Source: Neomegalonema perideroedes DSM 15528
GTDB lineage: Bacteria; Pseudomonadota; Alphaproteobacteria; Rhodobacterales; Rhodobacteraceae
DNA length: 64,000 nt
Direction of reading: 5' to 3'
NCBI RefSeq assembly: GCF_000374145.1
Contig: NZ_KB893653.1
Span: 505,495 to 569,494 of the forward strand
Shown: positions 1,856 through 15,198 of the stretch, in pieces
How positions within the stretch are numbered: position 1 is the stretch's first letter
How the letters are laid out: each line of letters starts with the position of its first letter
Translations under genes and position numbers: made by a program
Notes under the pieces: generated by a model
What the model was told of the DNA's origin: nothing
Database searches by the model: none
Seen by the model: only the letters and a program-made list of their open reading frames with translations

Positions 1856-1870
1856 ATGGCGGAGAGGGTG
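1856..1870. other. Left attachment core (copy of tRNA-Ser 3' end)
   Basis: The sequence atggcggagagggtg is identical to 13836-13850, the 3' terminus of tRNA-Ser plus one base. Identity breaks on both sides (A versus T before, T versus G after). The core lies inside the reading frame of the recombinase remnant and 92 bp before the integrase promoter. A 6-bp inverted repeat, GGCGGA/TCCGCC (1858-1863 and 1871-1876), straddles its right edge. Confidence 0.85.
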
Positions 1871-1961: not shown

Positions 1962-1990
1962 TTGTTCGTTCTCTATCGTTCGTCTAAAAC
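1962..1990 (+). promoter_or_regulatory. Candidate sigma-70 promoter of the integrase
   Basis: TTGTTC (1962-1967) and TAAAAC (1985-1990) are separated by 17 bp in an otherwise AT-rich stretch. A start about 7 bp downstream would put the paired TGTGGGAA repeats at the beginning of the transcript and the integrase ATG (2025) about 28 bp further on. Integrase bound to its arm sites could then repress its own gene. This is pattern matching only. Confidence 0.4.
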
Positions 1991-2000
1991 CGCGTTCAAG

Positions 2001-2020
2001 TGTGGGAACGAATGTGGGAA
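2001..2020 (+). repeat. Paired TGTGGGAA repeats, left end (candidate integrase arm sites)
   Basis: TGTGGGAA occurs at 2001-2008 and 2013-2020, a 12-bp period, immediately upstream of the chosen integrase start. The same pair with the same 12-bp period recurs at 13763-13782 near the right end. Short repeats near both ends of a tyrosine-integrase element are typical of arm-type binding sites. The second copy may also act as the Shine-Dalgarno (GGGAA) for the integrase. Confidence 0.6.
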
Positions 2021-2024
2021 CGCA

Positions 2025-3170
2025 ATGCCTCTCTCCGCTCGAAAAGTCGAAACGGCGCAGCCCGGAAAATATGGCGACGGACAGGGCCTGACGCTCTTCG
2101 TCAAACCCAGCGGCGCCCGCTCTTGGGTGCTGCGCTATCAACTCGCCGGAAGGCGCCGGGATCTCGGCTTGGGGGCTTGGCCGGAGATCACGCTGGCCCG
2201 CGCCCGCGAAAAGGCTCTGGAGGCCCGCCGCATGATCGCCGAAGGGCGCGATCCTCTCGCCGAACGCGCCAAGGCTCGCCGCCTGACTTTCGCCGCCGCC
2301 GCAAAGGCTCTGATCGAAAGCAAGCGCTCCGGCTGGAAGAACGCCAAACACGCCGAACAATGGTCTTCGACGCTGGAAGCCTACGCCTTCCCGATCCTCG
2401 AAGCTTTCGACGTGCGGCGGGTCGAGACGGCGGAGGTTCTGGAGATCCTGCGCCCGATCTGGACGGAAAAGCCGGAGACCGCAAGCCGTCTGCGCCAGAG
2501 GATCGAGGCGGTTCTCGACTACGCCGCCGCCATGGGCGCGCGCGAAGGCCTCAACCCGGCGCGCTGGAAAGGGCATCTGGATCATCTTCTTCCCAAAGCC
2601 TCGAAGGTGAAGGAGGCGGGGCATCATGCAGCGCTGTCCTTCAGGGAGATCGCCGCTTTCATGGCGGATCTGCGCCAGCGCGAAGGGGTGTCGGCTCGGG
2701 CGCTGGAGTTCGTGATCCTGACCGCCGCCCGCTCGGGTGAAGTGAGGGGGATGCGTTGGGGCGAAGTGAATTTGGAGGAGAAGCTCTGGATCGTCCCGCC
2801 TGAGCGCATGAAGGCGAGCAAAGAGCATCGCGTTCCTCTGACAGCGGCGGCCTTGGCGGCGATGGGCGAGCCGGGCGCGGCTGACGCCTTGATTTTCGGA
2901 AGCCAGACGAAGCTCGGCGCGCCTCTGAGCGATATGAGCCTGAGCGCGGTGCTGAAGCGGATGGGACGCGAGGAGATCACGGTTCACGGCTTCCGCTCGA
3001 CCTTCCGCGATTGGGCGGGCGAGACGACCGCCTTTCCGCGTGAAACAATCGAGGCCGCTCTGGCGCATCGCCTCAAGGACAAGGCGGAGGCGGCTTACGC
3101 ACGCGGCGATCTTTTGGCGAAAAGGCGCGATCTCATGGAGGCTTGGGAACGCCATATGTTCGCCAGTTAA
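2025..3170 (+). CDS. int: P4-type tyrosine integrase
   Basis: This 381-residue site-specific recombinase integrates and excises the island at tRNA-Ser. Residues 1-85 form the arm-binding DUF4102 domain (ARKVETAQPGKYGDGQG), about 90-180 the core-binding domain and about 200-381 the catalytic domain. Catalytic residues are visible: R236 (TAARSGEVR), H321 and R324 in HGFR, H348 in AHRL and the nucleophile Y358 in AEAAYARGD. An upstream ATG at 1962 would add 21 unrelated residues across the arm repeats. The ATG at 2025 matches the usual family start (M-x-L-x-ARKVE) and follows GGGAA. The gene lies next to the left att core and reads into the element. The length is normal and nothing is missing, so it is probably active. 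Confidence 0.93.
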   Translation: MPLSARKVETAQPGKYGDGQGLTLFVKPSGARSWVLRYQLAGRRRDLGLGAWPEITLARAREKALEARRMIAEGRDPLAERAKARRLTFAAAAKALIESKRSGWKNAKHAEQWSSTLEAYAFPILEAFDVRRVETAEVLEILRPIWTEKPETASRLRQRIEAVLDYAAAMGAREGLNPARWKGHLDHLLPKASKVKEAGHHAALSFREIAAFMADLRQREGVSARALEFVILTAARSGEVRGMRWGEVNLEEKLWIVPPERMKASKEHRVPLTAAALAAMGEPGAADALIFGSQTKLGAPLSDMSLSAVLKRMGREEITVHGFRSTFRDWAGETTAFPRETIEAALAHRLKDKAEAAYARGDLLAKRRDLMEAWERHMFAS

Positions 3171-3248: not shown

Positions 3249-4445
3249 ATGGCCAAGGACATACGCAGCACGCTGCGCAACGCGCCGCCTCAAGCCCTCA
3301 AGGTCTATTTCGAGAGCGTGGCGCCGGAGATCGCCGCAACGCTTGACGGCGAAGCCCTCTCGCGTGCGGCACTTGAGCAATTGATGGAGAAGATCGATCA
3401 AGCGCCGGAGGAACTGGCGGCGCTGATCTACAGCGATTGCGATCTGATCGAACAGATGCGCGACGCCAAGGGCCTGAATTGCATGCGTGGTCTTTATCTT
3501 CTTGATCAGGAGACGCAGGCCTTCTTTAACGAGCAAGAGGATCCGCGCGGCTGCGCTCTGCACCTGATCGCACGGAGCCGAAAGGCCTTCGAGACGGCGC
3601 ATGCGATTTTCTATGCTGAACGCCTTTATCACGGCAAAGACTGGAGCGGTTTCCTGCTCTCAGGCGTCGCTACTTCTCGGGAGTGGATCACGGATAAAGC
3701 TCTTCAGGAGCGTTTCCGCCTGCGCGTCGAAAAAATCCTGAGGGCGCGACGCGACGGACGCCGCCGCTGCAAGGTCGAATGGTTCGCCCGGCTCCGCAAA
3801 GAAGAGGAAGCGCTTCAGATTACGATCCATCAGGAGGATTTCGCGCGCCGGGAAACCGCTTTCGATGAGAAGGACGAACTCACCTCACAGACGCGCCGCC
3901 CTGTCGTCGAGGCCTGCATCGTCTTCAATCCTGCGACGGGCGATCTCGAAGTTTGCGCCAAAGGCGGAAGAGACCTTCGTGAAGAGATCAGCCGGGCTTT
4001 CTGCGACGTTCTGGGGCCTGAGGTGGGGCGCGCTTCCCGTCTTCCCCGCAGATTGAATCTAGATCGCCTCATGACGATGACGCATTTCCCTCTGAAGGCG
4101 GAGGACGGCGTTGAACGCGTGTCGCTGGAGGCGCTCTCTTTCATCATGTCAGACGCTGAAGCGATGAAAACGACGCTGGAAGGGCGAGCCGAACCTGTGG
4201 AGGGCGCTTTCCACAGGCACCTGAAAAATCTGCTTGGCGGCGATCCGGAGGAGCGGATTTCTCAGGTGCGGGCGGCGAACCTGCGCCTTGTTCTTCGACC
4301 CTCAGAGGAAGGGGCCAGAGCGCGTGAGCCAGTGCTGAAGTTAAAAACGCCCAATCTCACCAACCTGCGCGATTTGCGCGAGGAAGAGCAGGAATTGGCG
4401 CGGGAACTGATGGAGCGTTGGGGCCTCTATGCTCAATCGGGCTAA
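3249..4445 (+). CDS. Unknown protein A of a two-gene island cassette (398 aa)
   Basis: I do not recognise this family. The 398-residue product is soluble, charged and mostly helical in appearance, with no signal peptide, membrane segment, Walker motif or clear zinc site. The first ~180 residues are Ala/Leu/Glu-rich and end in a basic stretch (KILRARRDGRRRCKVEWF). The middle (about 190-260) alternates hydrophobic and polar residues like a beta-rich domain, and the C-terminus is a Glu-rich helix. The ATG at 3249 has GGAG about 8 bases upstream. Its end overlaps the start of the next gene by 17 bp, so the two products are probably made together. The pair sits between integrase and AlpA, where small islands often keep cargo; defence or element control are possible but unproven. 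Confidence 0.7.
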   Translation: MAKDIRSTLRNAPPQALKVYFESVAPEIAATLDGEALSRAALEQLMEKIDQAPEELAALIYSDCDLIEQMRDAKGLNCMRGLYLLDQETQAFFNEQEDPRGCALHLIARSRKAFETAHAIFYAERLYHGKDWSGFLLSGVATSREWITDKALQERFRLRVEKILRARRDGRRRCKVEWFARLRKEEEALQITIHQEDFARRETAFDEKDELTSQTRRPVVEACIVFNPATGDLEVCAKGGRDLREEISRAFCDVLGPEVGRASRLPRRLNLDRLMTMTHFPLKAEDGVERVSLEALSFIMSDAEAMKTTLEGRAEPVEGAFHRHLKNLLGGDPEERISQVRAANLRLVLRPSEEGARAREPVLKLKTPNLTNLRDLREEEQELARELMERWGLYAQSG

Positions 4446-5307
4446 TCCAAGGCGCGGCGCTCTGCGCATCCTGCTCCGTCTGCTGGAAGGCGAGGCCTCC
4501 CGCTTTCCACGAAGAAGCGGGGCTGCGGCTGATGATTTCGAGAATCTGATTCAGGCGGGCTTCCTGACGGAGGATAACCTCGTTTATTCGACGATTTGCG
4601 ACGAATGCGGGGAAGGCGAAGCCGCCTTGGTTGAGGTCAGGAATGGGCGAACTGGAATCCTCTGCGGGATCGAGGGCTTCGTCGAACGCGATCCGGAGAG
4701 CCTCGCCGCCTTCCGTTTGGAACGCGACGGTTTCGCGCGGGCGCTGCGAGAGGCTCTGACCGAAGGGGAGGAGGGCGGGGCTTCTTTCTCGAAAATTTCG
4801 GATCATCTTTGGCGTTTGGGCGGATTCTCGCGGGGCGGCGCTTCGGGAACGGCCTTTTTGGCTTTGCGGCTGAAAACTCCTGATGACTTCGTGTTCTTGG
4901 ATCAGGCGATCACCTCACGGCCTCGCCCCTCCGTCGGCGCCGTGTTCACGCTCCAGAGAGAGGCTTCGCCCGGCTTGAGACTGTCTCTGGGTTATCGGCT
5001 GATCCCTTGCGCAGAAGCCCTCCAGTTGACTGAAGACGGCCTTCGTCTGCGCATCGCCGCTTTGGCGGAGGCCTTCCCGGAGATTGCGAGGTTCTCTTCG
5101 GAGCTTCGGGATCGGGGGCGCCCCGGAAAATCGGTGGAAACGGGGCGCGTGATCCGCCATTTGCAGGAGCAAGGTTCTTGGCCGAAAGGGACGAACGCTT
5201 GCATTCGTGCAATTCAAGAGGCTTGGAGCGAGGTGAATCCCGCATCTGAAATTCCTGCGATCTCAACGCTTAAAGATCACCTCAGGAAACTCGCCTCCAT
5301 AGCCTGA
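4429..5307 (+). CDS. Unknown protein B of the cassette, with CxxC-type motif (292 aa)
   Basis: I do not recognise a named family. The N-terminal ~55 residues look like a winged-helix (RRGALRILLRLLEG ... FENLIQAGFLTEDNLVYS). They are followed by a short cysteine motif, TICDECGEGEAALVE, and a further Cys in GILCGIEGFVERDPE, a pattern like a small zinc-binding or treble-clef fold before a helix. The C-terminal ~80 residues are charged and end in a region resembling a DNA-binding tail. Translation starts inside the end of protein A (17-bp overlap), which suggests coupling. A 56-base hairpin follows the stop closely. DNA binding is a reasonable guess; the role is unknown. Confidence 0.7.
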   Translation: MLNRANPRRGALRILLRLLEGEASRFPRRSGAAADDFENLIQAGFLTEDNLVYSTICDECGEGEAALVEVRNGRTGILCGIEGFVERDPESLAAFRLERDGFARALREALTEGEEGGASFSKISDHLWRLGGFSRGGASGTAFLALRLKTPDDFVFLDQAITSRPRPSVGAVFTLQREASPGLRLSLGYRLIPCAEALQLTEDGLRLRIAALAEAFPEIARFSSELRDRGRPGKSVETGRVIRHLQEQGSWPKGTNACIRAIQEAWSEVNPASEIPAISTLKDHLRKLASIA

Positions 5308-5311
5308 TCTC

Positions 5312-5367
5312 AGGCGGACGGAAAAGAGGGCGGAAAACCATTTTCCGTCTCCTTTTTCCGTCCGCCT
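5312..5367 (+). other. Long nested hairpin after the unknown gene pair
   Basis: A perfect 14-bp outer stem (aggcggacggaaaa at 5312-5325 against 5354-5367) encloses a 7-bp inner hairpin, cggaaaa-cca-ttttccg (5331-5347). The intervening bases pair partly, giving nearly one continuous stem with a 3-base loop. There is no T-tract after it, so a simple intrinsic terminator is doubtful. It lies 4 bases after the stop at 5307 and before the AlpA gene. It could be a transcript-end stabiliser, a structured RNA or a protein-binding inverted repeat. Confidence 0.65.
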
Positions 5368-5413
5368 GCTTCGTCGTCCCATGCGCTGGCATTCAACCAA
5401 GCGTGAGGACGCC

Positions 5414-5653
5414 ATGACGAACGAATTCAACCTGAAATCTGACCAATCCCTTGCGCCCCTTGCGGTTTCCCCCGCCGAGGCGGCGCGTCTGGCGGGCGTG
5501 GGGCGCACCACGCTTTACGCCGCCCTTTCGGCGCGGCGGTTGCGGAGCTTCAAGCTCGGCAAGCGCCGCCTGATCTCCATGGCCGCCCTGCGGGAGTGGC
5601 TGGAGGCCTGCGAGGCCGCCCAGATCGAGGAGCCGCGCCATGTCGAGGGCTGA
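5414..5653 (+). CDS. AlpA/MerR-like helix-turn-helix excisionase or regulator
   Basis: This 79-residue protein carries a winged helix-turn-helix of the AlpA/excisionase type: VSPAEAARLAGVGRTTLYAAL forms the helix-turn-helix and SFKLGKRRLISMAALREWLEA the wing and last helix. Such proteins activate integrase or act as excision factors in P4-like elements. An ATG at 5381 in the same frame is less likely; the ATG at 5414 has GAGGA about 6 bases upstream and starts just before the conserved domain. Its end overlaps the primase start by 14 bp, which couples excision control to the replication genes. Confidence 0.85.
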   Translation: MTNEFNLKSDQSLAPLAVSPAEAARLAGVGRTTLYAALSARRLRSFKLGKRRLISMAALREWLEACEAAQIEEPRHVEG

Positions 5654-6530
5654 GGCTTTGACTAAGGCGCTCGGGGGGCGTTGGTCGGGCGGATCGGGCC
5701 TCGCCTGCTGTCCCGCCCATGAGGACCGCTCGCCCAGTCTCTCCCTTCGCGAAGCCGGAGACGGGCGGCTTTTGCTGAATTGCTTCGCCGGGTGCGATTT
5801 CGCGGCGGTGCTGGCGGCGCTCAAAGCGCAAGGTTTGATCTCGGGCGAAGTCCGCCCCGATCCCGAAGCGCAGACCCGGCGCCGCGAAGAGGAGGCCCGG
5901 AGGCGGGAGGAGCGGAGCCGCTGCGGCGATTGGGCGGCGCGGATCTGGGCGGAGAGCTTGCCGATCTCCGAAACTCAGGCTGAGGCCTATCTCCGCAAGC
6001 GCGGCGTCCTCGGACCATTGTCGCGCAATCTGCGCCATCATTCCCGCCTGAAGCATCCCTCCGGCTGCTTCGCGCCCGCTCTGCTGGCGCGGATCGAGGG
6101 CGCAGAGGGCTTCGCCTTGCATCGGACTTGGCTCGATCCTCAGGGCGCGCCCGCGAAGATCGGAGCCTCGCCGCAAAAGGCGATGCTGGGTCCGGCGCGG
6201 GGCGGCGCCGTGCGGCTGCGCGAGGGCGGATCCGGGTTGCTCGCTGTGGCTGAGGGGATCGAGACGGCGCTGGCCCTCGGGCGGGCGCTGGAGCCGGAGG
6301 CCGCTCTCTGGGCGGCGCTTTCGACTTCGGGGATGAAGGGCCTGCGCCTCCCTCATCAAGCGGGGGCGCTGCTGATCGGTCTTGACGGGGACGCGCCCGG
6401 AAGGGCGGCGGGCGCGGCTTTGGCGCATCGCGCGGTGGGTTTGGGCTGGCGGGTGCGGCTGGCTGATCCGGGCGAAGGGCGGGATTTCGCCGATCTGGCG
6501 GCCTTGGCGGATGGAGGCGGGCATGGCTGA
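5640..6530 (+). CDS. Toprim-domain DNA primase of the island
   Basis: This 296-residue primase has an N-terminal zinc finger like the DnaG CHC2 module (C24-PA-H27 with C48-FAG-C52) and a C-terminal Toprim domain. The Toprim catalytic residues are E205 in AEGIETALA and D249/D251 in GLDGDAPG. Between them lies an Arg/Glu-rich linker (about 80-95). It would lay down RNA primers for replication of the excised element, working with the helicase encoded next. Its start overlaps alpA by 14 bp and its stop overlaps the helicase start by 8 bp (ATGGCTGA). The domain order is typical of phage and island primases rather than of chromosomal DnaG, which is about twice as long. Confidence 0.88.
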   Translation: MSRAEALTKALGGRWSGGSGLACCPAHEDRSPSLSLREAGDGRLLLNCFAGCDFAAVLAALKAQGLISGEVRPDPEAQTRRREEEARRREERSRCGDWAARIWAESLPISETQAEAYLRKRGVLGPLSRNLRHHSRLKHPSGCFAPALLARIEGAEGFALHRTWLDPQGAPAKIGASPQKAMLGPARGGAVRLREGGSGLLAVAEGIETALALGRALEPEAALWAALSTSGMKGLRLPHQAGALLIGLDGDAPGRAAGAALAHRAVGLGWRVRLADPGEGRDFADLAALADGGGHG

Positions 6531-8304
6531 GGATCTGATCCGCGCCGCTCTGGAGGAGGCGCAGAGCTTCAGGCCCGCCCGTCCCGACGGGCTGCTGAAT
6601 CCGGAGGCGTGGCCTTATCGTCTCACGGAGGCGGGCGTTCAGAAGCGCCAGAAGGTCGGGGACGAACTGCAATGGCGCCTCTTCGCACCTCCTCTGGAGG
6701 TGCTGGCCGATCTGCGCGACGGCGAAGGGCGCGGCTGGTCCCGGCTGGTCGGTTTCAGGGATCGCGACGGGCGGCGCCATGAGATCCCGCTCGCCATGGC
6801 GGAGATCGGCGCCGGACGCGGGGCGGAACTGCTCGCCCTGCTGGCCTCGGGCGGGTATGAGACGCCGATCCAGTCCACCGCGCGCTCCGATCTGCTGAAC
6901 TGCATCATGCAGGCTCGTCCCGCCGCGCGGCTGCGCAAGGTCGAGCGCCTCGGCTGGCATGGCGGAGCCTATGTCTTGCCGGATCAGGTGATCGGGGCGC
7001 CGCAGGGCGAGCGGATCGCCTTCCAGCCGCCCGGAGATTTCGAGCACGCCTTCCGGGCGGCGGGGTCTTTGGAGGGCTGGCGCGAGGAGATCGCCGCGCC
7101 TTGCGCCGGAAATTCTCGGCTGGCGCTCTCGCTCTGCATGGGCTTCGCCGCGCCGCTGCTGGCGCTTCTGGAGGAGGAGGGCGGCGGGGTCCATCTGCGC
7201 GGAGGCTCCTCGCTCGGCAAGACGACCGCGCTCAACGTGGCGGCGAGCCTCTGGGGCGGCGGCGAGCCGGGCTATGTCCGCTCATGGCGCGCGACCTCCA
7301 ACGCTTTGGAGGGCGTGGCGCTCGCCCATAACGACGGACTGCTCTGCCTTGACGAACTCGGAGAATGCGACCCCCGCGCGGCGGGCGAGGCGGCCTATAT
7401 GCTGGGCAACGGTATCGGCAAGGGCCGGGCCTCGCGCTCGGGATCGGCGCGGGCCGTGGCGCGCTGGCGGCTGCTCTTCCTCTCGACCGGAGAGCTTTCG
7501 CTTTCCGACAAGATCGCGGAGGCGGGCGCGGGCAAGCGGGCGCGGGCGGGTCAGGAGCTGCGCTTTCTGGACCTCCCTGCGGATGCGGGGGCGGGCCTCG
7601 GGATCTTCGAGCGCTTGCCGGAGGGCCGGGCGCCGGGGGATTTCTCCAAGGCGCTGAAGGAGGCCGCGCGGCGTCATCGCGGATGGGCCGGGCCTGCTTT
7701 CGTCTTGTGGATCGCCTCGCGCCGGGAGGAGGTGCGGGAGGCGGCGAAGGCCTTCATGGCCGAATTCCTGCGGCGCGCGACCTCTGAGAAAACGGCGGGT
7801 CAAGCTGGCCGGGCGGCGCGGCGCTTCGCTCTGATCGGGGCTGCGGGCGAGCTGGCGCGGGAGGCGGGGATCTTGCCTTGGCCTTCGGGCGAGGCGCTCC
7901 GGGCGGCGGATCTCTGCCTTCGGGTCTGGCTGGAGGAGCGCGGCGGGGATGGATCCGCCGAAGCGCGGGCGGCGGTCGAGCAGGTGCGGAGCTTCCTCGA
8001 AGCCCATGGCGCGAGCCGCTTTCAATCGGCGGAGGTTTCGGGCGAGCGGGTGATCGAGCGTCTGGGCTTCTGGCGTCCGGGACCGGAGGGCGCCCGCGAA
8101 TATCTGGTTCCCGCCTCCAGCTTCAAGCGGGTCTTAGCGGCGGGCCATGATCCGAAGCTCATGCTTCAAGCCCTCAAGGCGGCGGGGATCCTCCGGACGG
8201 AGGGCGAGGCTCTGGCGGCGCAATCGATTTACATCGGCGCGGAGGGGCAAAGCATGCGCGTCCATGTGCTGCGGCTGAGAGAGGAGGGGCCGGATCATGG
8301 CTGA
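6523..8304 (+). CDS. DUF927-type replicative helicase/ATPase
   Basis: This 593-residue protein belongs to the DUF927 group of primase-associated helicases. Residues ~25-220 form the N-terminal part, followed by an ATPase with Walker A at about 228-235 (GSSLGKTT) and Walker B at about 273-279 (LLCLDELGE). A sensor-like LFLSTGELS follows. It probably unwinds the excised element for the adjacent primase. An ATG 141 bp earlier in the same frame lies wholly inside the primase gene. The ATG at 6523 has GGAGGC just upstream and the 8-bp stop-start overlap typical of coupled genes. The next gene starts with the same overlap sequence at 8297. Confidence 0.87.
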   Translation: MAEDLIRAALEEAQSFRPARPDGLLNPEAWPYRLTEAGVQKRQKVGDELQWRLFAPPLEVLADLRDGEGRGWSRLVGFRDRDGRRHEIPLAMAEIGAGRGAELLALLASGGYETPIQSTARSDLLNCIMQARPAARLRKVERLGWHGGAYVLPDQVIGAPQGERIAFQPPGDFEHAFRAAGSLEGWREEIAAPCAGNSRLALSLCMGFAAPLLALLEEEGGGVHLRGGSSLGKTTALNVAASLWGGGEPGYVRSWRATSNALEGVALAHNDGLLCLDELGECDPRAAGEAAYMLGNGIGKGRASRSGSARAVARWRLLFLSTGELSLSDKIAEAGAGKRARAGQELRFLDLPADAGAGLGIFERLPEGRAPGDFSKALKEAARRHRGWAGPAFVLWIASRREEVREAAKAFMAEFLRRATSEKTAGQAGRAARRFALIGAAGELAREAGILPWPSGEALRAADLCLRVWLEERGGDGSAEARAAVEQVRSFLEAHGASRFQSAEVSGERVIERLGFWRPGPEGAREYLVPASSFKRVLAAGHDPKLMLQALKAAGILRTEGEALAAQSIYIGAEGQSMRVHVLRLREEGPDHG

Positions 8305-8680
8305 AAATCTCAAGGCGCGGCTGCTTGCGGCCTTTGGTGAAAAGCCGCGTGAGGCGCGTGAGAAAGGTGAGACGCCGCCCAAGGCGCTGATCTCTCAGGA
8401 AAAGGCGCTCACGTTTCCGCCCGGCGCCGTCTCACATTCTCACATTTTCGGCGGGAAGCCGGATCCGGGGGTTTGTGAGGATAAATCTCAGAAAAATCAA
8501 CCATCTGCTGATGATCTCACGTTTCTCACGTTCTCACGCGAGGCGGCGGCCCTGCGCCGGATCCTTGATGATGAAGCTTTCTGCGCCTTCGAGGAGCGGG
8601 CGGCGATCCTCGAATATGAGGCGGGCCTTTCCCGCGCGGAGGCGGAGCGGCGCGCCGCTGAGGAGTGGCTCCCCCCATAG
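8297..8680 (+). CDS. Small unknown protein coupled to the helicase (127 aa)
   Basis: This gene starts within the helicase stop (ATGGCTGA overlap, 8297-8304), so it is almost certainly translated. The product is 127 residues long. Its N-terminus is basic (MAENLKARLLAAFGEKPREA), a Ser/Pro-rich middle follows, and a C-terminal helical segment (about 78-125) reads ALRRILDDEAFCAFEERAAILEYEAG, then SRAEAERRAAEEW. That last segment resembles the short C-terminal tails found in island replication accessory proteins. No catalytic motif is visible. A C6-ATA-G6 hairpin overlaps its stop codon. Confidence 0.65.
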   Translation: MAENLKARLLAAFGEKPREAREKGETPPKALISQEKALTFPPGAVSHSHIFGGKPDPGVCEDKSQKNQPSADDLTFLTFSREAAALRRILDDEAFCAFEERAAILEYEAGLSRAEAERRAAEEWLPP

Positions 8681-8685
8681 GGGGG
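8671..8685 (+). other. C6-ATA-G6 hairpin across a stop codon
   Basis: Six C, ATA, six G form a perfect 6-bp GC-only stem with a 3-base loop. The stop codon TAG (8678-8680) of the preceding gene lies in the loop and right arm. No T-run follows. It may slow ribosomes or protect the 3' end, or separate the replication genes from the next gene. Confidence 0.5.
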
Positions 8686-8829
8686 CGGATTAAGGATGGG
8701 GCGGAGGCGGCGAAGACCGCGCCTCCCCGTCGCGCGCGCGGCTGCAGGTTTCGAGGAAAAATCCGGAAGGGGCTTTCCACCGATCAACCCGGTTTGCGCC
8801 TGATGATTTCGAGAAACTTGGAGGCCCCC

Positions 8830-9420
8830 ATGGGCGGATGGAATTCAGGCGGCGGACGCGATGCGCCGCGTGAGGATCATTTTTTGCGGCTGGATCTCTC
8901 CCGGCTGAAGGCTCTGGGCTTTCTCAGGCCTCATTGGCGTCAAAGCCTGATCTGGACGCGCGGAGGTCGCAAAGAGGGGGATATCGTCATAGAGAGTTAT
9001 CCGGATCATCTGATGCTGATCTACCGGACGCGGCGCAACGGGGGCGAATGGCGGAGCGTCTGCGAGCGGGTTTCGCTCGCCTTCACAGAGCCGCATTACG
9101 GCGGGCGGCGGATCTGGATGCTCTGTCCCGGCTGCGGGGCGCGCAAACGCACGCTCTGGGGATCGGAGCGCTTCCTTTGTCGCGCCTGTCATGGGGGCGT
9201 GACCTATGAGAGCCAGTATGCCGACCGGATGGAGCGGAAGCTGACGCGGATCCAGAGCCTCCGGCGCAAGCTGGGCGGCGAAATCAGCCTCGCATGGCCC
9301 TTCCCCGAGCGCCCGAAACGCATGCGCCTCGCGACCTATGAGCGGATGAAGGAGGAGGAGGCCCGCCTCCGCGAAGAGCTGGACCGCCTCACCATCGAAA
9401 AATTCGGATGGAGCCTCTGA
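8830..9420 (+). CDS. Conserved island protein with a zinc ribbon (196 aa)
   Basis: The product begins MGGWNSGGGRDAPREDHFLR and contains a CPGCGARKRTLW ... CRACHGGVTYESQYADRMERK segment, a two-knuckle zinc ribbon at about residues 99-122. A basic helix and PKRMRLATYERM follow near the end. Proteins with this MGGWNSG start and terminal MRWATYERL-like motif recur in alphaproteobacterial islands as conserved hypotheticals; I know of no function. Upstream in-frame ATGs exist, but the ATG at 8830 has GGAGG about 7 bases before it and fits the family start. It ends 11 bp from the convergent antitoxin gene. Confidence 0.75.
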   Translation: MGGWNSGGGRDAPREDHFLRLDLSRLKALGFLRPHWRQSLIWTRGGRKEGDIVIESYPDHLMLIYRTRRNGGEWRSVCERVSLAFTEPHYGGRRIWMLCPGCGARKRTLWGSERFLCRACHGGVTYESQYADRMERKLTRIQSLRRKLGGEISLAWPFPERPKRMRLATYERMKEEEARLREELDRLTIEKFGWSL

Positions 9421-9431
9421 AAGCCCCCGCC

Positions 9432-9722
9432 TCAGGCCGCGAGCCTCTTCAGCATGGCCTCCGGATCGGCGTCGATCAGGCGGAGCAAGGCCCGCGCCGG
9501 GCCTTGAGGAACGCGGCGCCCCTGCTCCCAATTCTCCAGCGTGCGCCGGGAGACGCCGATCCGCTCCGCGAATTCCCGCTGGGTCAACCCGGTTGCGGCG
9601 CGGATGCGCGCCACGTCGAAGGCGGCGGGGATATGCGCCTTGAGATCCGGAACCTTCTTCCCGCCCAGATGCGCCTCGACTTCAGTGAGGCCGCGCATCA
9701 CGCTCTCGAAAACTTCACCCAT
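9432..9722 (-). CDS. Antitoxin with helix-turn-helix (HigA/NadS-like)
   Basis: This 96-residue protein has a C-terminal XRE-type helix-turn-helix, GLTQREFAERIGVSRRTLENWEQGRR, followed by GPARALLRLID. It is the standard DNA-binding antitoxin of RelE/HigB-type modules. It lies after the toxin gene, the reverse of the classical antitoxin-first order but typical for HigBA. The ATG at 9722 is chosen because GGAGG lies just upstream. The stop of the toxin overlaps it by 8 bp (ATGGGTGA). An ATG at 9734 would use that Shine-Dalgarno as codons. It probably represses the operon together with the toxin. Confidence 0.85.
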   Translation of the reverse strand: MGEVFESVMRGLTEVEAHLGGKKVPDLKAHIPAAFDVARIRAATGLTQREFAERIGVSRRTLENWEQGRRVPQGPARALLRLIDADPEAMLKRLAA

Positions 9723-10068
9723 CGGAGCCTCCATAGGTCAGGCCGATCCGCGAAGCGGCGGCGCTTAAGGCGTTCTGCTCGGCTTTGGTCAGAGCCGCTT
9801 TCGCGTTCTTGGCGTAAATCGTGATGAGGAAAACCGGGAGATCCGGCGAGCGGAAAAAATGGATCGTGCGATATCCGCCGCTTTTCCCGCCGTCCGGTCG
9901 AGGGATCCGCGCCTTGAACAGGCCGCCGCCAAGCGCGACGCCCAAGGCCGGATCCGCCGCGAAAAGCCCGACGATCCGCGCGCGCTCCTCCTCGGAAACG
10001 CCCGCCGCCTTGGCGGCGCGGATGAATTCCCCCGTTTCGACGACGGTATGCAGCGCGACTCCAACCAT
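9715..10068 (-). CDS. RelE/HigB-family toxin
   Basis: This 117-residue toxin resembles ribosome-dependent mRNA interferases of the RelE/HigB-2 kind. The signature run is GGKSGGYRTIHFFRSPDLPVFL followed by TIYAKNAKAALTKAEQNAL, which covers the central beta-strands and the C-terminal helix. It would cleave mRNA in the ribosome A site when the antitoxin is lost and so stabilise the island. The gene overlaps the antitoxin by 8 bp and is preceded by a promoter-like pair whose -10 box ends only 5 bp before the ATG. Individual catalytic residues cannot be assigned with certainty. Confidence 0.85.
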   Translation of the reverse strand: MVGVALHTVVETGEFIRAAKAAGVSEEERARIVGLFAADPALGVALGGGLFKARIPRPDGGKSGGYRTIHFFRSPDLPVFLITIYAKNAKAALTKAEQNALSAAASRIGLTYGGSDG

Positions 10069-10073
10069 GCCTC

Positions 10074-10103
10074 ATTCTACGCCATTGGCGGAGTTCAGAG
10101 CAA
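10074..10103 (-). promoter_or_regulatory. Candidate promoter of the toxin-antitoxin pair
   Basis: On the minus strand TTGCTC (10103-10098) and TAGAAT (10079-10074) are 18 bp apart. The -10 box ends 5 bases before the toxin ATG at 10068, so transcription would start at or beside the start codon and give a leaderless or near-leaderless mRNA. A GGCGG/CCGCC inverted repeat spans the -35 and spacer and could be an operator. Confidence 0.45.
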
Positions 10104-10126
10104 GCCGCCAGAATCAGAAAACGGAA

Positions 10127-13100
10127 TCATGAGATGGGGGCGAAACGCCCATCCTCCAGCGCATGAGCTTGAGCGAAGCCCACGAGCGCCTTGAGCGTCT
10201 CTTGCACCTTCTCCGCTTTGACGCGCTGGAAATGCGCTGTGATCGTCTCCGCCTTGAGCGGTTCGGGGGCGGCCTGCAAGACGGCCCGAACCGCCTTCAT
10301 CTGCTCCAGCATCTCCGCAGGCCAAGGCGTCTTTTTCGCCGCTCCGCCCGTCTGAGGCCTCACAAGATCCATTTCTCCGGTTTTGCGGGCGGCGTCTCCG
10401 CCGGAGGGATTCTGATATTTCGGCCTCAGCCAAAGGACTTGGCCGCGCGCCTCTTCATCGGCGCGGGCGTGGTTCAAGGCCACAAGGCGCTTGAGGATCT
10501 CCGGCTCCGCCAGATCCGCAGGCCAGCCATAGGCGGCGGCGGTCGCGGCGTCGATTTCATCATGAATCTGACGCAAAATCCCGATCAGGCCCTGATCGTA
10601 AATGGTTTTCGCCTTGCCCTCGATCAGCTCTCCGGCGCGCAGGGCGGCGAGCACATTATACATCTCCGTCAGCGTCAGCTTAGGATGCAGCTTCTGCCGA
10701 GCCTTCCGATGAGCGTCCAATTGCTCGCCAAGCTCGGCGAGGCGCGCCCGATGGTTTTCAGCGAGCGGCGGGAAGGGGAAGGGATCGAAACATTGGGATT
10801 TTGTGTAAACGGGTCGATCCTCCAATGTTCCGCCCGTCTTGAGCGCCCAGAGGACATGAATGCGGCTGGAGAGAATCGCCAGATGCTCCGCGCTGTCGAG
10901 CGCGATGGCGATCAATCTGTTGTCAGGCAAAATCTGCGCGTCGAGGAATTGAAAAACCCGGTGCTTCGCCGTCTCCACTGTGGCGATATAGCGGGGCAGA
11001 CCTCGAAGCGCGGTCCGCATTTCTCTGCGAGGCCCGCCGAAAGCCCACCAGTTTTCGCGAATGCCTTTATCGCGATTCGCATCCCGCTCCGGCTTCACAT
11101 GATCCAGAATATGCTGATAGACCTCGGGAAATTTGATCTGAACCTCTTTCGCCGTGAGGCCGAATAGATCGATCACCATGACGCCGCGCGAAAGTCGCGT
11201 GAAATCCATGCCGTTCAGATAGGGGCGGATATGGGCCTCAAGTCCTGGAACTCGCCCAAGACCCAAGGATTTTGCGGCGTTGGGCGTGACGATGAAGCCC
11301 GCGCCATGCAGCTTGACGCCCGGCGAAGAGAGAGCCTCATTCGCACACAAAAGAAGGATGTTGGTCAGATCCGCCCCGATCTGAAGATTGGCGAAGATCT
11401 TGCCACGCTGCTCGGCGAGCGTCACCGCGATTCCGCTGTCTTCGACCTCCGTCTCGCCTTCAGACATGACAGTCAGCAAAAGCCCATCCCGGCTTCCCCG
11501 CTCGGCGGCGGTCATGGAGATGCGCACGGCGGCGCCCCCTGTCGAATCCACCCAAGGATGATCCGGAATCGCATAGATCAGCGTTAAAGGCCGCTTCTGG
11601 TCGTTCAGGAAAGGCTCCAGAACGCGGCGGTTGAAGGTCTGGCGCAGGCTGTTGGTGGCGACGAAGCCGAAACGCGCGATCAATCCGGCCTGCGCGAGCT
11701 GCGCCGCTTTGTTCCACCAGAACATGACGAAATCGGCGGATCCCGGCATATCCGGCCAAGCCTTGCGCAGGGCCTCCGTATAGCCGTCGCCCAGAGCCTC
11801 GCGCATCCGGCTCGCCCCGATGAAAGGCGGGTTGCCGATCACCACATCCGCTTTCGGCCATGAGGCGGCGCGCGGGGCCTTGTAATCCAGCACCGGAACC
11901 CGCGCGGCGGGATCGGGAATCTCGGCGCCCGTGCTCGGATTGAGGATCAGGCTCACGCCGTCCCAACGGGTGACGGGCTGGCCCTTGTCGTCAAGGCGCG
12001 GGACGGGCTTTCCGGTCGAGGCCAGAACGGCGTCGCGGGTTTCGACGTTGCGGAAATCCCGGAGGATCGGCTCCGAAGGCTTGGCGTCCTTGAAAAGCCG
12101 GAAATGCTGCTGAAGCGAGCCGATCCAGAGCACAAGCTCCGCGACCGCCGCCGCCCATGGATTGACCTCCAGACCAAGGAATTGCTCGGGGCTGACCGTC
12201 TCGCCGGAGAGGCCGAAATCCGCATCCCGCAATTGCGCCCGCAATTCGTTCACTTCGCCTTCGAGGCGCTTCATCTCCTCCAGCGCCACATAAAGGAAGT
12301 TGCCGGAGCCGCAGGCGGGATCCAGCACCTTCAGAGCGCAAAGGCGCTTGTGGAAATCCTGAACGACCTTGCGGGCCTCCTCGATCTCGTCCTTCTCCGC
12401 CAGAGCGAGGGCGGCGCCCTTGGCGGTCATCCAATCTTCGCGCAAAGGATCGATGAGGACGGGACGCACAAGCCGCTCGACATAGGGCCGGGGCGTGTAA
12501 TGGGCGCCGAGCTTATGGCGCTCCTTGGCGGCGAGGGCGCGCTCCAGAAGGGTTCCGAAAATCGCAGGCTCGACCTGGCTCCAATCGGCCTCCGCCGCCC
12601 CGATCAGCAAGCCGAGCTGTTCGGAGCGCAAGGGAAGAGCCTGCGTCTCCTTGAAGAGAAAGCCGTTGAAGCGGCTGACCTGCTTGCGAAGACTGGTCGA
12701 GAAGCCGCCTCCGTCCATCTTCTGCCAAAGCTCCGTGACGAGAGGCGGGAAGCTCTCAGGCACTCCGCGCGCGGCGCGCAGCAGCTCCTTGAAGCTGTCC
12801 TTCGGCAAAAGCTTCACGTCTTCGGCGAACATCGTGAAGAGGCAACGCATCAGGAAGCGCGCCACGACCTCGGAAGGATGGCCGTCCTTCTCCAGACTCA
12901 CGGCGAGAAGGGAGAGATGCGTGGCGATCTCCCGCGTCACGCGGGCGGCTTCGCGGCTGCGGTCCAGAGAGAGGGGATCCGTCCAGATCGCCAGAAGGCG
13001 GGCGCGGATCTCGGGATTGAGCAGATCCTCCAGCTTGATGCGATAGCTTTGAGGATCGGGGAAAGGCGCGTAGTTCTTCCCGATCAGAGAGAAATCCGCG

Positions 13101-13585
13101 TAAACGTCGATGATATGCCCGATATCGACTGCGATGATGAAGGGCGGCCAGCCGTGATTCTTGGGCAAGGCCTTCGCATATTTCTCGGCTTGGGCGCGGG
13201 CCTTCCACATGGCCGCGTCGAAGCTTGAGGAGGTGCGCGCCACTTTGCCGGACTTGGGGCCGGACTTCGGAGCGAGCAAGGGCAGTTGAGGGAGATCGGC
13301 GGGCTTCTCAGGTTTGGCGCTTTGCTTCGCCTCCAAGACGAAGCAGCCGCGCTTATAGAGGTCTATGAAGCCCGAAGAGGTGGCGCCGCCCGCGTGATGG
13401 AAGGTCACCCGCTTTTCAAAGACGTAATCATCTTTAAGGCCGTTGGCGGGATCATGGGGCGGCGCGCCCAGAAGCGCGGCGAGTTCGATCAGGAAGCTCT
13501 GATAATTCGCCCGTTCGCTGGCGCTTGAAGCCGCCCAACGCTTGATGAACTTCGCCGCCTGCGCATTCTCGTCGTCAACGGACAC
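10127..13585 (-). CDS. MmeI-like single-chain restriction-modification enzyme (type IIG/IIL)
   Basis: The 1152-residue protein combines nuclease, methyltransferase and target recognition in one chain. Near the N-terminus a PD-(D/E)xK site is complete: D75 in GFIDLY and E85-x-K87 in FVLEAKQ. The adenine methyltransferase has SAM motif I DPACGSGNF (422-430) and catalytic motif IV NPPF (585-588). The following ~400 residues should hold target recognition, and the last ~100 form an extra helical tail. The enzyme would methylate host DNA and cut unmodified invaders. Translation starts at GTG (13585) with GGGGGAG upstream. It lies at the tRNA-proximal end of the island, reads inward, and is followed 58 bp later by the toxin-antitoxin genes. 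Specificity cannot be read from the sequence. Confidence 0.88.
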   Translation of the reverse strand: MSVDDENAQAAKFIKRWAASSASERANYQSFLIELAALLGAPPHDPANGLKDDYVFEKRVTFHHAGGATSSGFIDLYKRGCFVLEAKQSAKPEKPADLPQLPLLAPKSGPKSGKVARTSSSFDAAMWKARAQAEKYAKALPKNHGWPPFIIAVDIGHIIDVYADFSLIGKNYAPFPDPQSYRIKLEDLLNPEIRARLLAIWTDPLSLDRSREAARVTREIATHLSLLAVSLEKDGHPSEVVARFLMRCLFTMFAEDVKLLPKDSFKELLRAARGVPESFPPLVTELWQKMDGGGFSTSLRKQVSRFNGFLFKETQALPLRSEQLGLLIGAAEADWSQVEPAIFGTLLERALAAKERHKLGAHYTPRPYVERLVRPVLIDPLREDWMTAKGAALALAEKDEIEEARKVVQDFHKRLCALKVLDPACGSGNFLYVALEEMKRLEGEVNELRAQLRDADFGLSGETVSPEQFLGLEVNPWAAAVAELVLWIGSLQQHFRLFKDAKPSEPILRDFRNVETRDAVLASTGKPVPRLDDKGQPVTRWDGVSLILNPSTGAEIPDPAARVPVLDYKAPRAASWPKADVVIGNPPFIGASRMREALGDGYTEALRKAWPDMPGSADFVMFWWNKAAQLAQAGLIARFGFVATNSLRQTFNRRVLEPFLNDQKRPLTLIYAIPDHPWVDSTGGAAVRISMTAAERGSRDGLLLTVMSEGETEVEDSGIAVTLAEQRGKIFANLQIGADLTNILLLCANEALSSPGVKLHGAGFIVTPNAAKSLGLGRVPGLEAHIRPYLNGMDFTRLSRGVMVIDLFGLTAKEVQIKFPEVYQHILDHVKPERDANRDKGIRENWWAFGGPRREMRTALRGLPRYIATVETAKHRVFQFLDAQILPDNRLIAIALDSAEHLAILSSRIHVLWALKTGGTLEDRPVYTKSQCFDPFPFPPLAENHRARLAELGEQLDAHRKARQKLHPKLTLTEMYNVLAALRAGELIEGKAKTIYDQGLIGILRQIHDEIDAATAAAYGWPADLAEPEILKRLVALNHARADEEARGQVLWLRPKYQNPSGGDAARKTGEMDLVRPQTGGAAKKTPWPAEMLEQMKAVRAVLQAAPEPLKAETITAHFQRVKAEKVQETLKALVGFAQAHALEDGRFAPIS

Positions 13586-13762
13586 TTACAGACTCCCCCG
13601 CATGCAACGCCCCCGCCCTCGTCTCCCATATTTCGGCGGCGCCGTCTCTAGTCTTTGGGGCGCAGGGCCTGAGAAGGCGCGGAGGCTCCATCATGAGCGT
13701 TGCGGAGGGGCTGCGAATCTAGGGGAGGAGCGAGAAAAACCGCCCAACAATCCCCCGCAGAA

Positions 13763-13782
13763 TGTGGGAATATATGTGGGAA
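13763..13782 (+). repeat. Paired TGTGGGAA repeats, right end (candidate integrase arm sites)
   Basis: TGTGGGAA at 13763-13770 and 13775-13782 repeats with a 12-bp period, the same arrangement and strand as 2001-2020. It lies 54 bp from the right att core in an AT-rich stretch (13741-13835) that otherwise holds no gene. The stretch 13586-13760 shows nothing I can name. Confidence 0.6.
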
Positions 13783-13835
13783 TGATTTTTCTCAAATCTA
13801 TTTTTCCCAATAAAAACAATAACTTATTGGAATAT

Positions 13836-13850
13836 ATGGCGGAGAGGGTG
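13836..13850. other. Right attachment core at the tRNA-Ser 3' end
   Basis: The sequence atggcggagagggtg matches 1856-1870 exactly. It covers the encoded CCA, discriminator base and acceptor 3' arm of tRNA-Ser (minus strand) and one base beyond. The tRNA is intact at this junction. Confidence 0.85.
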
Positions 13851-13926
13851 GGATTCGAACCCACGATACCCTTGCGGGTATTCCGGTTTTCGAGACCGGC
13901 GCGATCGACCACTCCGCCACCTCTCC
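13837..13926 (-). tRNA. tRNA-Ser(CGA)
   Basis: The 90-base minus-strand gene begins GGAGAGGTGGC and ends CCTCTCCGCCA with an encoded CCA. Acceptor arms GGAGAGG/CCTCTCC pair fully. The anticodon stem-loop CCGGT-CTCGAAA-ACCGG gives anticodon CGA, which reads UCG serine codons. The long variable arm (ATACCCGCAAGGGTAT) marks a class II tRNA, and the T-loop is GGTTCGAATCC. The 3' end is the integration target of the neighbouring element. Confidence 0.97.
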
Positions 13927-14160
13927 GCGGGGTCGAGCCTATCAAGGCCGCGCTCCAATGCCAGATCCGCGCGCCGATTGCAAGCGCCTTCCAGCCTCCG
14001 AAGCTCGCAGGCCGTCGCGGCGAGAGGAACCTGAGGCCGAGGCCCCGCAGGATCTGGCGCGCCGACGAGAAACAGCCTACCACCACAGCCGACGGCGTCG
14101 GCCAAAGCCGCGCCGACGAGCGCAGGCGGTCCCACAGGCGGGGACTTCAGGAGGCGAGCC

Positions 14161-15198
14161 ATGTTCTTCAAAAGCGACAACACCGCAGGCGCCGCGCCCG
14201 AGATCCTCGCGGCTCTGGCCGAGGCGAACCAAGGCCATGACCTCAGCTATGGCGAGGACGCCCTCACCGCCCGTCTGGAGGCGCGGCTCGCAGAGATCTT
14301 CGAGCGCCCTTGCGCCGTCTTTCCGGTGGTCACGGGCACGGCGGCCAACAGCCTCGCCTTCTCCGCCATGACGCCCCCTTGGGGCCTGACCTACGCCCAT
14401 GAGACCGCGCATGTGATCATGGACGAATGCGGCGCTCCTGAAGCCTTCGCCGGAGGCGGCAGGCTCGCGCCTCTGCCGGGGCCGCAAGGCAAGATCGATC
14501 CGGAGGCCCTCGCGCGGGCCTTGCTGGCCGCTCAAAGCCATGGCGTCCATCAGAACCGTCCGGCGGGGCTGACCCTCTCCAACCTCACGGAATGGGGCGG
14601 GCTCTGGCGGCCCGGGGAGATCGCCGAGGTCGCCCGCATCGCCCATGAAGGCGGACTCAAGGTCCATCTCGACGGCGCGCGTTTCGCCAATGCTCTGGCC
14701 GCGCTGAACGTCTCGCCCGCCGAAGCCTCATGGAGGGCGGGCGTCGATCTGCTCTCCTTCGGCGCCACGAAAAACGGCTGTCTGGCGGCGGAGGCTCTGG
14801 TGGTCTTCGATCCGGCTCTAGCCGAGAACATGGCCTATCGGCGCAAAAGGGCGGGTCATCTGCTCTCGAAGCAGCGCTTCGTCTCGGCGCAGATGCTGGC
14901 TTGGCTGGAGGGCGGGCTTTGGCTGCGTCTGGCGGCGCGGGCCAACGCCATGGCGGCGCTGCTGGCCGAGGGGCTGAGGGCTCTGCCGGAGACGCAGGTT
15001 CTCGGCGAGGTCCGGGGCAATATGATCTTCGTCACGCTGCCGCGCGCGACTCATGAGCGGCTTCAGGCGGCGGGCGCGCGCTATTACCTCTGGGCCGAAG
15101 AGGCGCCGGATTCGCCCGAGGTCACGATTCGGCTGGTGGCCTCCTTCGCCGCTCAAGAGGCGGAGGTCGCGGCCTTCCTCGCGGCGGCGCGGGGCTAG
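14161..15198 (+). CDS. Low-specificity threonine aldolase family PLP enzyme
   Basis: This 345-residue fold-type I PLP enzyme would cleave L-threonine or allo-threonine to glycine and acetaldehyde. The N-terminus FFKSDNTAGAAPEI matches the family start. D171 in HLDGAR contacts the cofactor ring nitrogen, and K204 in SFGATKNG is the Schiff-base lysine. AGGA-GG before the ATG (14161) is a good Shine-Dalgarno. The length is normal. The gene stands alone between tRNA-Ser and a convergent gene. The 234 bases upstream hold a repeated GCGCCGACGAG (about 14058 and 14109) and otherwise nothing recognised. Confidence 0.88.
   Translation: MFFKSDNTAGAAPEILAALAEANQGHDLSYGEDALTARLEARLAEIFERPCAVFPVVTGTAANSLAFSAMTPPWGLTYAHETAHVIMDECGAPEAFAGGGRLAPLPGPQGKIDPEALARALLAAQSHGVHQNRPAGLTLSNLTEWGGLWRPGEIAEVARIAHEGGLKVHLDGARFANALAALNVSPAEASWRAGVDLLSFGATKNGCLAAEALVVFDPALAENMAYRRKRAGHLLSKQRFVSAQMLAWLEGGLWLRLAARANAMAALLAEGLRALPETQVLGEVRGNMIFVTLPRATHERLQAAGARYYLWAEEAPDSPEVTIRLVASFAAQEAEVAAFLAAARG

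Follow-up and report, generated by a model that had tools for sequence, protein, structure and literature searches.

An undescribed gene pair of prophages and satellite-like islands, with a predicted CENP-N/RdgC-type fold in its first protein

Analysis of a 64,000-bp stretch of the Neomegalonema perideroedes DSM 15528 genome (hereafter the window) revealed two adjacent genes, A and B, which constitute an undescribed pair found in prophages and satellite-like islands. The favoured reading, to which we give nearly an even chance, is that the two products form an obligate two-subunit DNA-binding complex, a core control module of prophage- and satellite-like elements that tunes the switch from the dormant to the active state. 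This proposal combines observed properties of the genes (their existence, linkage, overlap, fusion, position and selection) with a modelled fold of A; DNA binding, the role of B and the switch function are what we infer.

The initial annotation had placed two reading frames with a 17-bp overlap between an integrase and AlpA, and both are present, with a tyrosine integrase upstream and an AlpA-type HTH_17 protein downstream (Table 1). Comparison with a sister genome (MAG Neomegalonema STC_130) gave dN/dS ratios of 0.08 for A and 0.25 for B, which indicates that both are genes under purifying selection, and homologues of both were found in many genomes. As had been suspected, no family can be named for either protein: there was no significant Pfam, NCBIfam or PADLOC match, and Pfam searches with 39 members of A and 43 of B returned chance matches only. 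The ATE_N and Cep57 Pfam matches of B were sub-threshold and were rejected. The sole match of A, over its full length, was to phrog_37634 (E = 3.8e-33), annotated as 'unknown function', which was matched by 18 of the 27 A, B and fused members scanned; the B protein of the window had no significant match in PHROG. Searches of PDB sequences with profiles of A and B gave no credible match.

Table 1. Features of the window that are relevant to the A-B pair
Feature	Position	Strand	Description
Island end far from tRNA	1856-1870	.	15-bp direct repeat of the tRNA-Ser 3' end, ATGGCGGAGAGGGTG
Tyrosine integrase	1962-3170 (likely start 2025)	+	PF22022, PF13356, PF00589
Gene A	3249-4445	+	398 aa; open reading frame, phrog_37634, model (pLDDT 80), Foldseek, dN/dS 0.08
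Gene B	4429-5307	+	292 aa; open reading frame, model (pLDDT 74), linkage to and fusions with A
Strong hairpin/palindrome between B and alpA	5311-5368	+	fold z-score -7.3; directly after the B stop codon
AlpA/excisionase-like HTH_17 protein	5381-5653	+	PF12728, E 2.4e-11; phrog_66, E 4e-7
Toprim/DUF7146 primase-type protein	5640-6530	+	
DUF927 helicase/primase	6523-8304	+	PF06048, E 4.6e-73
Two small island genes without family	8297-8680, 8665-9420		second has a CxxC...CxxC zinc-ribbon-like stretch
Island cargo	9432-13585		XRE/RelE toxin-antitoxin pair and 1152-aa MmeI-like restriction-modification enzyme
Other island end, 3' end of tRNA-Ser(CGA)	13836-13850	.	exact 15-bp repeat

A single-sequence search detected A in 8 of 101 relatives, and profile searches detected it in 59 of 397 genomes of the same family (about 15%) and in 31 of 398 sampled genomes of the phylum (about 8%). 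Neither tblastn of GenBank phages nor single-sequence scans of IMG/VR gave a match to the single A and B proteins; scanning IMG/VR with an alignment yielded 98 confirmed loci, 80 of which were fetched. A plasmid search gave one match.

The members of the pair belong together. Among the first 88 loci, B adjoined or was fused to A in every one, and in 85 the two genes overlapped, a count that uses longest-ORF starts, the start codons not being proven; overlaps derived from aligned starts were 8-26 bp in the loci checked. A search of these 397 genomes with B alone gave 65 matches that reached its N-terminal or central part, and 59 of these had an A match no more than 2.5 kb away on the same strand. 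One of the remaining six was a false match, and the others were accounted for by a contig end, fragments and diverged or decayed copies; the false match, an apparent B without A in genome G055, lies inside an unrelated enzyme and was discarded. B directly follows A in essentially every intact locus, and the independent occurrence that would have spoken against the initially proposed pair was not seen. In 16 fetched loci A and B form one chain of about 580-820 aa with both profiles in order, which lends further support to the proposal of an undescribed pair. Taken together, fusion, overlap and co-occurrence make it very likely that A and B form a physical complex.

The host island measures 12.0 kb between the tRNA-Ser(CGA) repeats. 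In the sister genome the same island, also of about 12 kb, resides in a different gene, tRNA-Ser(GGA), with tRNA-end repeats at both ends. The elements characteristic of P4-like and PICI-type islands (integrase, AlpA, primase-helicase and att repeats) are all found, and no structural (capsid) genes were recognised in the 12 kb; judged from its sequence, it is built like a capsid-less satellite (P4- or PICI-like) or integrative element. A serine recombinase reading frame (513-1955) begins outside the island and crosses its tRNA-distal end repeat, so that the C-terminus of the recombinase is island sequence; the same frame contains a pure (AAG)n run (731-795) encoding about 21 lysines.

The hairpin between B and alpA recurs in related islands. 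A 10-pair stem of different sequence is located at the same place in eight of them (L013, L138-L142, L144 and L145), with 92.5% of cells paired compared with at most 60% in slid controls, and with 11 two-sided (compensatory) changes against a shuffled mean of 5.3. It could be an RNA attenuator or a DNA (dimer) operator, both being retained since a palindrome could also serve as an operator for a dimer.

The pair occurs in two main settings. In the first, represented by the IMG/VR loci, ImmA/XRE genes are located no more than 3 kb upstream in 39 of the 43 loci with enough sequence, and an AlpA-like HTH gene (59/67) and an AAA_24 gene (48/54) lie downstream, after which come genes for a DUF669-like protein (by reading), a ResIII helicase, a PD-(D/E)XK nuclease and an AAA_25 protein. 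Genes for serine recombinases and DUF2924 proteins often lie nearby; other upstream neighbours, assigned by sequence reading, are LexA-like, WYL and UmuC/DinB-like, and RecA is also among the neighbours. In loci L208 and L200 the pair stands beside UmuC/DinB-like genes, and L208 also has a RecA gene (by reading), a possible link to DNA damage. The second setting, which includes the window, comprises tRNA-Ser islands with a tyrosine integrase, AlpA and variable restriction-modification genes, which are MmeI-like in the window, a Res-type helicase in L013, type ISP in L203 and type I-like in L205 (by reading). The initial annotation regarded the gap between integrase and AlpA as a frequent cargo slot, a view that synteny does not support: the pair persists whether the integrase is of the serine or the tyrosine type, and alongside differing cargo, and its constancy beside AlpA while integrase and cargo change argues for core machinery rather than cargo.

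The fused class has other surroundings, with a recognised repressor or ImmA neighbour in 0 of 14 loci and AlpA in 1 of 16; the window island likewise has no recognised repressor or ImmA neighbour of the pair. In one case, a complete-looking prophage, genes for gpA terminase, a lambda-type portal and a tape-measure protein lie downstream of the fused copy. Downstream of the fused genes in L156-L171 there is a recurrent 81-aa Cys-rich protein, weakly similar to phage Mu Com, and also a 240-aa protein whose end resembles sigma-70 region 4. In L172 (positions 9989-14670; Candidatus Tenderia plasmid CP013100) a bacterial ubiquitin-like operon of Multi_ubiq, JAB and ThiF/E1 genes begins immediately after the pair, all of them annotated as hypothetical. 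The islands L138-L144, consisting of A, B, AlpA, an HTH gene and an integrase, were considered as minimal five-gene elements; the term 'minimal' was dropped, since no end repeats of at least 12 bp were found around them and a restriction-type helicase lies upstream of A in L013.

The initial annotation left the choice between defence and element control, and of the two it is element control that is better supported. A defence or superinfection-exclusion module, in which A would sense or grip foreign DNA and B would act as effector or regulator, appears unlikely, albeit with a real chance of being right. Such a role would have parallels in the Rex systems of lambda and actinophages, which exclude other phages (PMC11077077); the same islands carry restriction-modification and toxin-antitoxin genes, AbiE-type toxin-antitoxin genes adjoin the pair in some phages, and on one plasmid a multi-ubiquitin/JAB/E1 operon directly follows it. 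However, no PADLOC family was found in 27 diverse members (PADLOC 2.0.0), no effector domain is recognisable in B, and the place of the pair in the core stays the same while the defence genes around it vary.

An AlphaFold2 model of A, built from an alignment of 25 sequences, reached a pLDDT of 80 and a pTM of 0.65. In it, roughly 126 N-terminal residues form a helical part and beta-rich domains follow, so that the beta-rich middle noted from the sequence is seen in the predicted structure; the basic segment noted there is also present (RARRDGRRRCK, at about 165-176). In a Foldseek search of the PDB, ranks 1-13 were all occupied by CENP-N/Chl4, Iml3/CENP-L or RdgC, with E values of 1.7e-5 to 1.7e-2 and probabilities of 0.89-1.00, and the probability of the next match was 0.14. 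The best match was CENP-N (7pkn_N; E = 1.7e-5, probability 1.00), and E. coli RdgC (2owl) was found with E = 4.9e-4 and probability 0.99; two viral proteins of unknown function also matched with probability 1.00. Iml3/Chl4, RdgC and lambda RexA have one DNA-binding fold in common (PMC4080450, PMC11077077), and A is predicted by the model to belong to this CENP-N/Chl4-Iml3-RdgC class, which includes RexA. TM-scores to CENP-N and RdgC are low (0.25-0.45) and rmsd values are large, which limits the assignment to the fold class and does not extend it to details. RexA was not among the best 50 matches of A, while RdgC and Iml3/Chl4 were. Profile comparison (hhalign) of A with RdgC and with RexA gave no signal, a null result that is uninformative, since RexA and RdgC compared in the same test likewise gave none.

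It is highly improbable that the likeness to CENP-N and RdgC is spurious, produced by a model of low accuracy, and that A-B does something unrelated, acting for instance as an enzyme or a scaffold. Only 25 sequences were aligned, TM-scores stay below 0.5 and there is no support at the sequence level, which would fit an artefact; against this, all 13 best matches fall into one previously known fold class and are followed by a sharp drop. A more far-reaching idea, that A is the closest prokaryotic structural relative yet of CENP-N, ahead of RexA and RdgC, and that the lineage of such a switch protein of phages and satellites, with its N-terminal helical domain, could be the source of eukaryotic CENP-L/N, is very unlikely.

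The fold also bears on a role as an accessory of replication, recombination or partition, comparable to RdgC, a RecA modulator, or to an origin- or centromere-binding complex. The RdgC matches of A, and the fact that CENP-N is a centromere protein, agree with such a role, as does the gene order: primase/helicase genes directly follow the pair in the window, L203 and L205, as genes for AAA_24, helicase and PD-(D/E)XK proteins do in phages. We nevertheless regard it as quite unlikely: no primase/helicase gene was recognised near the pair in islands L138-L144 by an inspection short of a domain-by-domain scan, partition is not needed by chromosomally integrated elements, and the gene order beside repressor and AlpA fits regulation better.

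B consists of an N-terminal helix/strand domain, a CxxC...C stretch, a central mixed alpha/beta part and a C-terminal three-helix HTH-like tail. The winged-helix-like start ascribed to it from the sequence is partly borne out, in that the small N-terminal helix/strand domain of the model (pLDDT 74) is compatible with a winged helix. The Cys motif was correctly noted (C57-x2-C60 and C79); it is restricted to the window-like clade, and the phage clade has a D-H-D-D stretch there. Foldseek returned nothing better than E = 0.06 for B, and RNase-H-like names among the weak matches were set aside. No recognisable effector domain (nuclease, nucleotidase, NADase or membrane) was found. The C-terminus of phage-clade B is co-linear with OmpR C-terminal domains (hhalign P = 0.0012; controls 0.06-0.4) and by this profile comparison resembles the OmpR winged helix; window-clade B lacks this domain and has instead a shorter helical tail together with the CxxC...C stretch. 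The last 90 residues of phage-clade B recur in a distinct protein family of unknown function that is widespread and has members of 227-253 aa (L246-L249 and L253, from genomes G430, G609, G559, G472 and G566).

In the proposed DNA-binding control complex, A would probably grip duplex DNA through the RdgC/RexA/CENP-N-type scaffold, without much sequence specificity, as a dimer or as an A-B assembly. B would place the complex or contact the repressor/AlpA circuit through its terminal HTH, which may differ by clade, being an OmpR-like winged helix in phages and another helical tail in islands. Encoded between repressor/ImmA and excision/replication genes, the complex would tune the passage from the dormant to the excising or replicating state, much as lambda RexA does for the CI-Cro switch; RexA lies next to the repressor and makes the lytic state more stable (PMC11077077). 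Other phages might be excluded as a side effect. This switch reading is supported by the fold of A, the position of the pair, its linkage and fusion, and the OmpR-like C-terminus of phage-clade B. Counted against it are the low TM-scores, the absence of a sequence signal and of RexA from the best 50 matches, the net charge of A (-6, not strongly basic), the absence of a repressor neighbour in the fused class and the window island, the lack of a structural match for B, and the absence of the OmpR-like domain from the window B.

If correct, the switch reading would make a testable module for the control of prophages and satellites out of an undescribed, sometimes fused pair. It would also widen the Rex question, namely whether the RdgC/RexA/CENP-N scaffold serves mainly the lysogeny switch or phage exclusion, and carry it to many elements with a non-membrane partner. 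With its predicted fold, A would extend the fold class of the inner kinetochore proteins CENP-L/N by a prokaryotic branch.

Among known systems, the pairs most similar to A-B are lambda RexA-RexB (PF15969) and the Rex-like pairs of actinophages, which also are two adjacent genes beside a prophage repressor and of temperate-phage origin. Repressor adjacency was observed for A-B in 39 of 43 IMG/VR loci, though not in the window island or the fused class. A is predicted to fall into the RdgC/RexA fold class, to which RexA belongs by its solved structure; A differs in its extra N-terminal helical domain. A search for the RexA family (PF15969) in 39 A members at an E value of 5 gave no match, while the lambda RexA control was found at 1e-97. 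RexB is a four-helix membrane protein, whereas B is soluble with HTH-like ends and is not a RexB-type membrane protein, its maximal 19-residue hydropathy being 0.68 compared with 2.39 for lambda RexB. Unlike RexAB, A-B is sometimes fused and is also carried by satellite-like islands. The pair may work like Rex, yet it is not a member of RexAB, given that A does not match the RexA family and that B is no membrane protein.

RdgC (PF04381) is a housekeeping gene that stands alone, with no partner like B, and A had neither a Pfam nor a profile-profile match to it. The inner kinetochore proteins CENP-N/Chl4 and CENP-L/Iml3 are eukaryotic and have no sequence similarity to the pair; the Pfam CENP-N/Chl4 family was absent among the matches of 39 A members, and B is unlike CENP-L. 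The structural search does find a CENP-N-type fold in the model of A (Foldseek E = 1.7e-5), with a TM-score of only 0.3-0.45. In CENP-N a helical domain stands before the beta-rich part, and A is alike in this order. The tests placed A-B in no known family; it is an undescribed Rex-like pair of prophages and satellite-like islands.
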